From: an uncultured Acidobacteriota bacterium | Lineage (GTDB): Bacteria; Acidobacteriota; Thermoanaerobaculia; Gp7-AA8 | Direction of reading: 5' to 3' | Assembly: GCA_937870635.1 (NCBI GenBank) | Contig: CALMZP010000042.1 | Span: 1-46,219 of the forward strand | DNA: 46,219 nucleotides | Shown: positions 647-46,219 of the stretch, one piece after another | How the letters are laid out: each line of letters begins with the position of its first letter | Numbering within the stretch: the stretch's first letter is position 1 | Notes under the pieces: model-generated | The model's input: the letters and a program-made list of their open reading frames with translations, nothing else | Database searches by the model: none | Told to the model about the DNA's origin: nothing | Made by a program: the position numbers and the translations under genes

Positions 647-2317
647 GTGGCAGATAAGTGGACCGTTGCACGCGCTCTCGACGAGATCAGCCGCTATCAC
701 GAGCTGAGCGATCCTCAACCATTCCGGGCCCGGGCTTTCGAGCGCGCCGCGCGGGCTGTGGAGGGCCTGGACAGAGATCTCGGCGAGGTGATCGCCTCCG
801 GCGATCTCTACAAAACGTCCGGGATCGGAAAAGCGATCGGCCCGATCATCGTCGAGCTCATGGAGAACGGCTCCTCGCCTTATCTCGACGACCTGCGGGC
901 CACGTATCCCCCCGGCATCTTCGAGCTTCTGCGCGTCCCGGGGCTTGGCCTCAAGAAGATCGGCGTTCTGCATTCGACCTTTGGGATCGGATCGCTCGAC
1001 GAGCTCGAGGAAGCTGCGAAGGAAGGCCGGCTGGCCAAGCTCCGCGGATTCGGAGCGAAGACGCAGGCGAAGATCCTCGAAGGCATCGAAAAAGCGCGGA
1101 CGCGGGAGTCGAAGTTCCTGCTCCCCACGGGGCTCGAGGTCGCGGAGCTCATTCGTGAGCGTCTCGCCGCGATCGACGCGGTGGAGGACGTCGAAGTCGT
1201 CGGCAGTGTGCGGCGGCGTCTCGAAGTCGTCCGCAACGTGAATCTCGCCGTCTCCACGACCGATCCCGCGGCGGTCATCTCCGTCATGAGCCGTTTCCTC
1301 GATCAGGGAGCGGGCGTCGGCGAGGACACATGGACGGGCGTTGCACGCAACGAGATCGCGGTGCTGCTTCACTTCGCCGAACCGAAGCAATTCGGGCACA
1401 TGGTCCTGCGCACGACGGGAACGCCGGATTTCGTGACGGCATTCGAAGAGGCGGCTGCGCGAATGCCGGCCGCGAAGACCGAGGAGGAGCTTTTCGAGAA
1501 GGCGGGAATTGCGTTCGTCGAACCTGAGCGACGAGAGAGCGCCGCTGATCTGAAGAAGAAGCGGCGGCCGAAACTCGTCAGTCCGTCCGATCTTCGCGGC
1601 ACCTTTCACGTCCACACGACGTTCTCCGACGGGCGAAACACCGTTCTGCAGATGCTCACGGCCGCGCGCGACCGCGGCTTCGATTACGTCGGGATCTCCG
1701 ACCATTCCAAGGCTGCCTATTACGCGGGCGGGCTGACCGAGGATGGTGTGCGCCAGCAGCAGGCCGAGATCAGGGAGCACGAAGGCTCGGTGGCGCCGAT
1801 GCGTGTTTTCCGTGGCAGCGAGGCCGACATCCTCCCCGACGGATCGATGGACTACGACAGAAAGACCCGCGAGAAATTCGACTTCATCGTCGCGTCCGTG
1901 CACTCGCGATTCAACATGAACCGCGAAGAGATGACCGAACGAATTCTCCGCGCGCTCGACGACCCGACCGTCACTTTCCTCGGCCACGTCACCGGCCGCA
2001 AGCTTCTTGTCCGTGACGGTTACACCGTCGACTTCGACCGAATCTTCGAGCGCGCCGCCGAGCGGGGCGTCATCATCGAGATCAACGGCAACCCCTACCG
2101 GCTCGATCTCGACTGGCGCCACATAGGCCGCGCCGTCGAGCACGGCGTGATCTTCAGCATCAACCCCGACGCGCATTCCATCGCCGAGATGTCGCACACG
2201 ATCAGCGGCACCTGGGTCGCGCGCAAAGCAGGCCTCACGGCAAAGCACATCTTCAACACGAGAAGCGTCGAGGAGGTCGCGGCGTATTTCGCGAAGCGGA
2301 AGGCCGTTAACCGTTAA
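647..2317 (+). CDS. polX: PolX-family protein: PHP phosphoesterase domain intact, polymerase site degenerate
   Basis: This is a bacterial X-family DNA polymerase homologue of about 556 residues, close to the usual 570. In order it has an N-terminal HhH 8-kDa-like region, a second HhH segment (VPGLGLKKIG, LRGFGAKTQAKI), the nucleotidyltransferase palm near residue 187 and a C-terminal PHP domain from about 320. The PHP metal ligands look complete: FHVHTTFSDG, GISDHS, GSEADIL, ASVHSRF, GHVTGR and NPDAHS. The polymerase site does not. The expected GS-x-RR-x6-D-x-D reads GSVRRRLEVVRNVNLAV, with Asn in both Asp positions, and the third Asp region reads NEIAVLL. The protein is therefore probably a nuclease or phosphoesterase without polymerase activity. 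GTG 647 was chosen for the upstream -10; TTG 641 is an alternative. The stop codon lies inside the heptamer array. Confidence 0.88.
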   Translation: MADKWTVARALDEISRYHELSDPQPFRARAFERAARAVEGLDRDLGEVIASGDLYKTSGIGKAIGPIIVELMENGSSPYLDDLRATYPPGIFELLRVPGLGLKKIGVLHSTFGIGSLDELEEAAKEGRLAKLRGFGAKTQAKILEGIEKARTRESKFLLPTGLEVAELIRERLAAIDAVEDVEVVGSVRRRLEVVRNVNLAVSTTDPAAVISVMSRFLDQGAGVGEDTWTGVARNEIAVLLHFAEPKQFGHMVLRTTGTPDFVTAFEEAAARMPAAKTEEELFEKAGIAFVEPERRESAADLKKKRRPKLVSPSDLRGTFHVHTTFSDGRNTVLQMLTAARDRGFDYVGISDHSKAAYYAGGLTEDGVRQQQAEIREHEGSVAPMRVFRGSEADILPDGSMDYDRKTREKFDFIVASVHSRFNMNREEMTERILRALDDPTVTFLGHVTGRKLLVRDGYTVDFDRIFERAAERGVIIEINGNPYRLDLDWRHIGRAVEHGVIFSINPDAHSIAEMSHTISGTWVARKAGLTAKHIFNTRSVEEVAAYFAKRKAVNR

Positions 2318-2355
2318 CCGTTAACCGTTAACCGTTAACCGTTAACCGTTAACCG
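2304..2355 (+). repeat. Tandem heptamer array CCGTTAA, 7 units
   Basis: There are seven perfect CCGTTAA units plus a partial eighth. The second unit supplies the TAA stop of polX. Because TTAA is its own complement and the period is 7, the array puts a TAA stop in all six reading frames. It is the left half of an inverted pair with 2515-2570. Confidence 0.97.
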
Positions 2356-2373
2356 CGGCGAGCATAACGTCCC

Positions 2374-2460
2374 CACGTCATCCTGAGGCGCGAAGCGCCG
2401 AAGGATCTCAGGTTACGCAACTTGAGACCCTTCGCCGTCTTCGCGGCTCAGGGTGACGTG
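2374..2460. repeat. Dispersed palindromic element, family A copy 1
   Basis: The element starts CACGTCATCCTGAGG and ends with the imperfect complement GCTCAGGGTGACGTG, with an internal repeat around AAGGATCTCA and TTGAGACCCTT. A second copy lies at 30764-30860, also near TTAACGG heptamers. It sits in the core between two inverted heptamer arrays and can fold into a long hairpin. The rest of the core (2461-2514) holds no gene. Confidence 0.85.
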
Positions 2461-2514
2461 ACAGCAACAGCGGCTGACGGCGCACTAAACGAGAGCGGCA
2501 ATGTGATAGGCCAC

Positions 2515-2570
2515 TTAACGGTTAACGGTTAACGGTTAACGGTTAACGGTTAACGGTTAACGGTTAACGG
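2515..2570 (-). repeat. Tandem heptamer array TTAACGG, 8 units, inverted
   Basis: There are eight perfect TTAACGG units, the reverse complement of the array at 2304-2355. The stop codon of the convergent gene at 2557 falls in the seventh unit, so both convergent genes end with Val-Asn-Arg-stop encoded by repeat. Confidence 0.97.
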
Positions 2571-3249
2571 TCTTCGCGCTGACCACGACCACCAGCGCAC
2601 GCTGGCTCTGCGGGTCGCGTGTCGCACCGAAGATCAGCGTCTGGCCGATCTTGAGATTGAGCGTGGTCTTGTAGAGCGCGGTGAGCTGATCGCCCTGAAG
2701 CTTCGAGAGCTTGAAATCTGCCAGGCTGATGGAATCGCTCTTCGAGTCGTACTCGCCGAAGCGGAAGTCGGCGCGATAGCCGCTGCCCAGTTCGACGATG
2801 CCCGGCTCGCCCTCGCGGCCGTCCACGTTGACGGCACCCAGGTGCTCGAAGGAATTGAAGCGCAGCATGGCCAGCTTCGGAGCGACATCTTTGAGCGTAT
2901 CGGGCACCTGACCACCGGCACCCTCGACCCTGGCTGCAGTGACGAGGCGGACGGTCAGCTGCACCGGCTGGGGCGGCGTGTCGAAGCGCTGCAGAGCGGC
3001 AGCGATGTTCTTGAGGTTCTCAGCACGGTCTGTGATCACGACCGAATTGGCCGCGGACTGGATGGCGACGGTTCCCTCCGCGCTGACGAGCGTCTTGATC
3101 GCCGTGGCAGCCTTCTCCGCGAGCTTGTGCTTGAACTGATACGTGAAGACGGAGAGCGTCTTCTCGTCAGTGGACGCAGCCTGGTCGGCCATGGCGGCGG
3201 CGCCGAAGCAGAGAAGGATGAGAGTCAGGAGAGCAATTCTTTTCGTCAT
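2557..3249 (-). CDS. Secreted protein with secretin N1/NolW-like domain
   Basis: This 230-residue protein has a typical Sec signal peptide (KRIALLTLILLCFGAAAMA). Residues of about 32-100 read like a secretin short domain: SVFTYQFKHKLAEKAATAIKTL, then VAIQSAANSVVITDRAENL, then a helix ending LQRFDTPPQPVQLTV. That alternation is typical of the N1 repeats of GspD and PilQ. There is no secretin barrel, so it is a stand-alone periplasmic domain, perhaps binding a pilus or type II secretion component. It overlaps the anti-sigma gene by ATGA and closes the sigma operon, so it may be a target or sensor of that regulon. Its last three codons come from the heptamer array. Confidence 0.75.
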   Translation of the reverse strand: MTKRIALLTLILLCFGAAAMADQAASTDEKTLSVFTYQFKHKLAEKAATAIKTLVSAEGTVAIQSAANSVVITDRAENLKNIAAALQRFDTPPQPVQLTVRLVTAARVEGAGGQVPDTLKDVAPKLAMLRFNSFEHLGAVNVDGREGEPGIVELGSGYRADFRFGEYDSKSDSISLADFKLSKLQGDQLTALYKTTLNLKIGQTLIFGATRDPQSQRALVVVVSAKTVNR

Positions 3250-14970: not shown

Positions 14971-14991
14971 GAATTGAGAATTGAGAATTGG
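14971..14991. repeat. Short heptamer array GAATTGA, 3 units
   Basis: Two perfect GAATTGA units and a third ending GG, in the divergent gap between the CBM9-like and Hpt genes. No inverted partner is seen. It shares the 7-base period with the other arrays in the window. Confidence 0.7.
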
Positions 14992-16423: not shown

Positions 16424-16530
16424 GGGTGCTGGGTGCTTGGTGCTGGGTGCTGGGTGGGGTACCGGAAGGCCGGCTACGCCCGGATGTCAGCACCAAGCAC
16501 TGAGCACTGAGCACCAAGCACCAAGCACTG
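16424..16530. repeat. Inverted heptamer arrays GGGTGCT / AGCACCA
   Basis: 16424-16458 holds five GGGTGCT-type units (one TGGTGCT, one ending GGG). 16489-16530 holds six units of AGCACCA or AGCACTG, roughly the reverse complement. The core of about 30 bases (GTACCGGAAGGCC onward) is itself partly palindromic. The structure lies between the nadC stop (16537) and the GGDEF start, and matches the layout of the TTAACCG arrays in period and inversion but not in sequence. Confidence 0.93.
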
Positions 16531-17428: not shown

Positions 17429-17778
17429 GGGGGCGCACCGGCTTCGACGGGATCAGTCGGGGTCATGGTTGCATGCCGAGCTGATTGCCTCGTAAAAACG
17501 ATCACCAACTGTAATCGCGAACAGCGAATACGCACTCGCAGCTTAATTGACTGCGACGCCAACTGACCGGCCGCTCACGCCGGTAAGACCTGGCGCCATG
17601 ATGTGAGCTAAGGACTCTCGACCGCCTCGCCGGGAGTCACGAAAATTCAGGGGCTGGTCCTTCGTCGTTCTCTGCTCTCCGGGCAGGCGTTGGACGAGAA
17701 CAAAAGCGAGAGACAAGCATGTAGTAGCCAGGCTGCCACGGGTTTCGGACGCGGGTTCAACTCCCGCCGCCTCCACCA
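17429..17778 (+). ncRNA. ssrA: Transfer-messenger RNA (tmRNA)
   Basis: A one-piece tmRNA of 350 nt that frees stalled ribosomes. The 5' end GGGGGCG pairs with CGCCTCC before the encoded ACCA at the 3' end (one G-U pair). The 5' region has the conserved GGCTTCGACGG and GGTTGCATGCCGAG. The T arm is GGGTTCAACTCCC. The tag frame opens at GCG 17517 after GTAATC and reads A-N-S-E-Y-A-L-A-A, then TAA at 17544-17546. The terminal ALAA is the usual protease-recognition end. 3' of the tag the sequence can form the expected GC-rich pseudoknots. It is divergent to nadC, and smpB is not in the window. Confidence 0.96.
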
Positions 17779-25844: not shown

Positions 25845-25906
25845 ATTTTGGATTTTGGATTTTGGATTTTGGATTAGGGACAAATCCAAAATCCAAAATC
25901 CAAAAT
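25845..25906. repeat. Inverted heptamer arrays ATTTTGG / CCAAAAT forming a hairpin
   Basis: Four ATTTTGG units (25845-25872, plus ATT) face three CCAAAAT units (25886-25906), separated by about six bases (AGGGAC). The arms are perfect complements for 24 bases, so this is a strong AT-rich hairpin between two minus-strand genes. It may block or terminate transcription. It is a third heptamer family with the same inverted layout. Confidence 0.95.
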
Positions 25907-25924
25907 CGATTACTGCCGCGTCCG

Positions 25925-30763: not shown

Positions 30764-30886
30764 CCACGTCATCCTGAGGCGCGTAGACGCCGAAGGACCT
30801 CAAAATGCGATTCACGTAGTTTGAGGCCCTTCGCCGTCTTTGCGGCTCAGGGTGACGTGGTGGAGCGCGGGCGACCTCGCCCGCGG
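30764..30886. repeat. Palindromic element family A copy 2, plus module C
   Basis: Starts CCACGTCATCCTGAGGCGCG and ends GGCTCAGGGTGACGTGG, like the copy at 2374-2460. An adjacent palindrome around 30722-30763 (GCGAAGCGAAGGACCTCG with GGGCTCCTTCGCGCC) precedes it. At 30863-30885 module C (GCGGGCGACCTCGCCCGC) follows. There is no gene here. Confidence 0.87.
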
Positions 30887-30909
30887 CATGTTTCGGCCGG
30901 GTACTTCGG

Positions 30910-30930
30910 TTGACGGTTAACGGCTGACGT
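30910..30930. repeat. Degenerate TTAACGG heptamers, 3 units
   Basis: TTGACGG, TTAACGG, CTGACGT follow one another directly after the family A element, repeating the association seen at 2374-2570. The units look like decayed copies. The stop of the next minus-strand gene is adjacent. Confidence 0.6.
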
Positions 30931-46136: not shown

Positions 46137-46206
46137 CGTTAACCGTTAACCGTTAACCGTTAACCGTTAACCGTTAACCGTTAACCGTTAACCGTTAACC
46201 GTTAAC
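46137..46206 (+). repeat. Tandem heptamer array CGTTAAC, 10 units
   Basis: Ten perfect CGTTAAC units, the same family as at 2304-2355. No inverted partner is visible before the window ends at 46219. Confidence 0.95.
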
Positions 46207-46219
46207 CCGGATTATTCAC

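Follow-up and report, generated by a model that had tools for sequence, protein, structure and literature searches.

Inverted heptamer arrays at a convergent gene junction of an uncultured acidobacterium and the many similar arrays of its genome

Introduction

How does a tandem repeat come to supply the last codons and the stops of two neighbouring genes? In an uncultured soil acidobacterium (Acidobacteriota; Thermoanaerobaculia; Gp7-AA8), two convergent genes run into facing arrays of one seven-base word. The locus lies at 2304–2571 of contig CALMZP010000042.1 (assembly GCA_937870635.1), of which positions 1 to 46,219 are called the window here. A sequence-only reading of this DNA had taken the arrays for a universal translation stop and possibly a barrier to transcription.

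Heptamer repeats as such are familiar. Cyanobacterial STRRs are tandem words of seven bases that lie between genes, with several words per genome. The heptamers GGGAATC and GGGGA(C/T)T of Xanthomonas and Nostoc are mostly intergenic, and Xanthomonas has 70–75 inverted pairs of convergent polarity that form potential stem-loops, divergent gaps being avoided; the over-representation of heptamers in bacteria has likewise been published (Rehm et al. 2015, PMC4692102). The TAACTGA repeats of marine Beggiatoaceae are also intergenic, carry stops in all three forward frames and in some cases overlap gene ends (MacGregor 2015, PMC4679880). For the length of seven, the only published explanation that we met is a polymerase footprint, which both papers cite (PMC4692102, PMC4679880).

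The metagenome-assembled genome measures 4.52 Mb in 171 contigs and shares its family with Acidobacteria 'gp7' assemblies. Arrays were surveyed in 1.37 Mb of it, taken in pieces; pieces L164–L195 were picked for holding arrays or the core palindrome, and the remaining 820 kb were mostly unselected for arrays, except that four of the first contigs came from a list of array matches. Gene contexts were obtained with a purpose-written gene finder rather than from published annotation.

Results

The sequence-only reading had described inverted arrays facing each other across a 159-base core that holds a palindromic element. TRF and direct reading reproduced this exactly: both arrays are 100% perfect, with 7.4 and 8.1 units and 159 bases between them, and the interval contains an 87-base palindrome at 2374–2460 (Table 1). 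In predicted RNA folds, the palindrome alone reached -65.1 kcal/mol (z -11), and the whole locus formed a 52-bp outer stem enclosing the inner palindrome (-176.4 kcal/mol, z -19). No T-tract was found 3′ of the hairpins, so neither the locus nor the hairpins in general have the form of intrinsic (rho-independent) terminators. In units of TTAACGG and AAAATCC, runs of G or C are no longer than two, short of the Xanthomonas-type G-tract of at least three per unit. An Rfam scan of the window returned tmRNA alone, leaving the core palindrome without a family. The tmRNA gene (17429–17778) follows an inverted GGTGCTT heptamer pair at a distance of about 900 bases, on its downstream side. Arrays of the locus family had also been reported as degenerate at 30910 and intact at 46137, and we found one perfect unit at the former and 10.1 perfect units at the latter.

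Table 1. Repeat features and array-flanking genes in the 46,219-nucleotide window.
Feature	Position	Strand	Remarks
PolX-like gene, 558 aa	641..2317	+	last codons V-N-R and TAA from array
Left heptamer array (CCGTTAA)7.4	2304..2355	+	5′ arm of outer stem; holds upstream gene's stop
Left spacer, array to core	2356..2373		partly alike in other TTAACGG-core composites (by eye)
Core palindrome CACGTCA...TGACGTG	2374..2460		87 bases; dispersed element
Right spacer, core to array	2461..2514		by eye
Right heptamer array, (TTAACGG)8.1 on + strand	2515..2571	-	3′ arm of outer stem; holds convergent gene's stop
Convergent gene, 230 aa, no assigned function	2557..3249	-	last codons T-V-N-R and TAA from array
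Lone short heptamer array GAATTGA x2.9	14971..14990		TRF/direct reading
Inverted pair, third heptamer group	16424..16530		GGTGCTT/GGTGCTG ... AGCACTG/AGCACCA
Inverted pair, different stop-free heptamer	25845..25907		(ATTTTGG)4.4 - 6 nt - (AAATCCA)3.7
Second core palindrome copy	30765..30859		convergent junction
Decayed TTAACGG array GGTTGACGGTTAACGGCTGACG	30908..30929	+	single perfect unit, degenerate neighbours; adjoins core copy 30765-30859
Perfect (CGTTAAC)10.1 array	46137..46207	+	at contig end

Both genes do end in ...VNR-TAA inside the arrays, as had been claimed. Orthologues of the upstream gene, which we call PolX-like from knowledge of the protein family rather than from a profile search, align up to residue 554–556 of 558 across ten genomes from the family of this bacterium. 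The convergent gene ends in ...SAK-TVNR*, and seven orthologues end in ...AKR*, ...ARR* or similar. Since the ends of the orthologues differ from those at the locus, both gene ends were rebuilt by the array, which took the place of the final codon and the stop that each gene originally had.

In the 1.37 Mb surveyed, 344 arrays of period 7 were detected, and no other true period between 4 and 20 had more than 34 (period 14, being twice 7, was set aside), so that period 7 exceeded every other period about tenfold or more. Three units of TTAACGG gave 194 + 189 overlapping matches in the genome and the reversed pattern none; these counts, together with the tenfold excess of period 7, exclude a chance origin. 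From 171 arrays in the 820 kb, about 940 per genome (or, rounded, about 900) were extrapolated. The commonest words were AAAATCC, AACCGTT (the locus word), AAGGATG, AAGGTCC, AAGGTCG, AAGCACC, AACGATG, ACCCTGG and AACATTC. AAAATCC led with 110 arrays and 463 overlapping three-unit matches; its hairpin, GGATTTT-loop-AAAATCC, is the commonest of the genome (compare 25845–25907 in the window; pieces L124–L203) and is missing from 40 relatives. Unit number differs between loci, the longest arrays reaching 12 units. With a seven-base unit and intergenic dispersal over many loci, the arrays belong to the heptamer tandem repeats (STRR, or long simple sequence repeats of period 7). That they are an artefact of assembling a metagenome bin is hardly credible: arrays often lie at contig ends, as at 46137–46207, but most are inside contigs between ordinary genes, with some ORFs ending in them, and the same period-7 phenomenon occurs in isolate genomes of other phyla.

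The arrays are predominantly paired. An inverted partner of the same word lay within 300 bp for 75 of 95 arrays (79%; first 437 kb), compared with 2 of 169 distant control stretches; among loci with the locus word fetched from other organisms and phyla, 20 of 179 (11%) had such a partner. The order in which the arms face each other is fixed for each word: AAAATCC pairs always read GGATTTT-loop-AAAATCC (48/48), and the order was equally constant for AAGGATG (9/9) and AACGATG (4/4). AACCGTT pairs with the core inside always read CCGTTAA...TTAACGG (13/13), the opposite order occurring in two short-loop cases. The loops of AAAATCC pairs measure 1–42 nt and are unrelated, except for one that holds the core palindrome. 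Of all observations in the data set, this constancy of polarity despite unrelated loops is the one least accounted for. Within a word, the lengths of the two arms showed no correlation. As to mirrored unit variants between AAAATCC arms, 5 of 6 informative pairs shared a type, which is not significant and too few to establish copying from arm to arm.

The core palindrome is an element of its own. Its 66 copies in the 1.37 Mb are about 70–107 bases long; 48 are flanked by a heptamer array on one or both sides, and 24 lie in a strict inverted pair, built from seven different words (the locus word and six others). Copies are also numerous in the sister genera G006, G007, G008 and G010, and among those read in G006 and G008 a heptamer array was nearby in only 2 of 27, on one side only. 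As the core occurs without heptamers in sister genera, core and arrays are separate things that have been joined in this genome. Several G008 copies (L260, L263, L265, L267 and L268, around position 3000) have long flanks in common (catttctcacag...ggcgtggagcaagtgtca), and the palindrome there seems to be embedded in a larger dispersed element. In the surveyed genome, core copies were enriched in convergent gaps (23/59 versus 119/628, p = 0.0007). Most copies end in CACGTCA...TGACGTG or CGTCA...TGACG, so the palindrome resembles the CGTC-tagged REPs in being dispersed and palindromic with CGTC near its end; those have stems of 8–9 bp and loops of 4–5 (PMC3733652), whereas this element, 87 bases at the locus, has an almost full-length stem (-65 kcal/mol).

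These features bring up mobility. The pairs could be miniature elements whose arms are terminal inverted repeats around a variable loop, the palindrome being a second, CGTC-ended element that jumps into or with them. A word polarity that stays constant over many loci with unrelated loops resembles inheritance by copying, some TTAACGG-core composites share spacers by eye, as if whole composites had been copied, palindrome copies sit inside pairs of seven words, and the genome has three Y1-transposase genes. We nevertheless regard this as rather unlikely, because no transposase is tied to the arrays, neither loops nor lengths are constant and fixed ends are missing, and most heptamer arrays of other phyla lack an inverted partner. 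A related and distinctly unlikely idea is that heptamer hairpins spread as a mobile class set only by word and polarity, the arms arriving in facing order and the loop not being inherited, through a seven-base copying step shared across phyla.

With respect to genes, 203 array sites comprised 9 inside genes, 41 in convergent, 99 in co-directional and 31 in divergent gaps, and 23 at sequence ends, so that 95% of the placeable sites were intergenic. Among the background gaps of at least 50 bp (119 convergent, 361 co-directional and 148 divergent), 167 of 628 (27%) held an array. Arrays overall were not significantly enriched in convergent gaps (41/171 versus 19%, p = 0.16); only the core palindrome was. 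Their proposed position at gene 3′ ends was borne out as some enrichment: 92 of 181 flanking 3′ ends, against 24 of 161 5′ ends, fell within -25 to +10 of the array site, and in co-directional gaps the array was nearer the 3′ end in a ratio of 62:35 (p = 0.008). In other genomes, too, an ORF stop lay in 10 of 51 TTAACGG arrays, compared with 9% for random intergenic placement.

That the locus word (AACCGTT, on both strands) stops all six frames is correct; the further claim, that the array is a universal translation stop, does not hold as a general function. Of the eight commonest words, five (AAAATCC, AAGGTCC, AAGGTCG, AAGCACC and ACCCTGG; 173 arrays) are stop-free in every frame and occupy the same kind of site, and stopping translation is therefore not the common purpose. 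Because TTAACGG stops every frame, it cannot sit inside a gene, which in itself accounts for part of its presence at gene ends. It is thus most improbable that arrays are kept for their stops, even though both locus genes end in one, forward-frame stops were noted for TAACTGA (MacGregor 2015, PMC4679880) and a flanking-gene stop lay inside 16 arrays of the locus word. These were only 16 of 67, and three units of a stop-bearing word would be enough where the arrays reach 12. We tentatively regard the stop codons as a by-product of the word TTAACGG and not the purpose of the arrays.

Canonical terminators are rare in this genome, occurring in about 8% of the gaps that contain a 3′ end; among co-directional gaps they were found in 7 of 97 with arrays and 21 of 264 without. 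Being equally frequent in both, they are not visibly replaced by arrays. Placement and folding together make a role of the hairpins at transcript ends plausible. The barrier suggested in the sequence-only reading could take the form of facing binding sites for a polar protein that halts RNA polymerase or the replication fork between genes. The fixed facing polarity of each word would suit such a roadblock, which is nonetheless very improbable: each of about ten words would need its own binding protein, many sites are co-directional or divergent, and no candidate protein is known.

The spread over all gap types bears on a simpler possibility, that slippage arrays and their fold-back copies have no function and pile up wherever genes and promoters are not disturbed. 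Convergent, co-directional and divergent gaps are all struck, words differ between genera (AAAATCC occurred in none of 40 other genomes) and arm lengths vary freely, so this neutral origin is a real possibility, if one that we hold below even odds; inverted pairing at 79% with fixed polarity is more order than drift alone leaves, and the core palindrome is enriched in convergent gaps.

Most relatives likewise have convergent genes at the polX junction, with a different inverted repeat in each. In G008 it carries the core palindrome without heptamers, in G009 a short ACTCAGC array and a hairpin, and in G007, G006 and G011 other, unrelated hairpins. In G010 (L209:3172–3263), an AAAATTG heptamer pair surrounds a classical bidirectional A-tract/stem/T-tract terminator; arrays can thus decorate a terminator rather than replace it. 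Judged by these comparisons, the junction retains a hairpin while the sequence turns over. AACCGTT was present in 2 of 60 relatives. Period 7 was the commonest in nearly all relatives sampled, and it is exclusive in other phyla too. Period-8 tandem arrays occur in G011 (7; L228–L230) and G008 (3; L231–L233), unlike the genome of the window.

Discussion

Our preferred reading, to which we give a probability of roughly 45% jointly with the mechanism that follows, is that two heptamer arrays in inverted orientation make up the locus, a pair with hundreds of counterparts in the genome, and fold into a long hairpin round an independently dispersed palindrome. Tandem heptamers would arise and change length by replication slippage in seven-base steps, as the exclusivity of period 7 suggests. 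Template switching by fold-back would then copy an array across a hairpin and so create the inverted arm of the same word, as the pairing suggests. Such hairpins would settle where harm is small, often just behind stop codons, and a stop-bearing word can then capture a gene's last codon and stop, as the orthologue comparison shows for both genes here. The RNA hairpin may finally mark and shield the 3′ ends of both convergent transcripts, a role suggested by its placement; other hairpins would fill it at the same junction in the sister genera.

This account, slippage and fold-back copying with hairpins tolerated or used at transcript ends, is favoured by the exclusive period, the pairing, the folds, the intergenic 3′ bias, the rebuilt gene ends, the junction hairpins and the convergent enrichment of the core. 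Against it stand the lack of a T-tract, the terminators that are not replaced, the uncorrelated arm lengths, the variants too few for copying and the 31 sites in divergent gaps, where no transcript ends. The fixed polarity (48/48) is left unexplained by local fold-back copying.

The feature is best read as a variant of known bacterial heptamer repeats, the STRRs and the GGGAATC repeats of Xanthomonas. Like the STRRs, its words are seven-base tandems scattered between genes, several per genome; the cyanobacterial loci carrying CCGTTAA that we fetched were largely unpaired, unlike those here. With the Xanthomonas and Nostoc repeats it shares mostly intergenic heptamer arrays and inverted pairs, but those have one G-rich, quadruplex-capable word, whereas here there are many words, mostly without G-runs, a majority of arrays is paired and some loops hold a separate palindrome (PMC4692102). 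The TAACTGA repeats of Beggiatoaceae are direct repeats that immediately precede start codons, only one case being inverted, while the present arrays form inverted pairs and lie more often behind stop codons (PMC4679880). A text search of the literature returned nothing for the array words and only unrelated papers for the core sequence. Novelty seems to lie in the extent of the pairing, in the number of words that each keep a fixed polarity and in the separate palindrome within pairs of different words.

The locus itself documents, with orthologues as reference, how a repeat has captured the final codon and the stop in each of two genes. It is an old question why a unit of exactly seven bases is so frequent among bacterial tandem repeats of such size. 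About 900 arrays, mostly mirrored and of fixed polarity, in some ten recurrent words, together with the words of sister genera at the same junction, offer ready-made material for distinguishing between slippage, fold-back copying and mobility.
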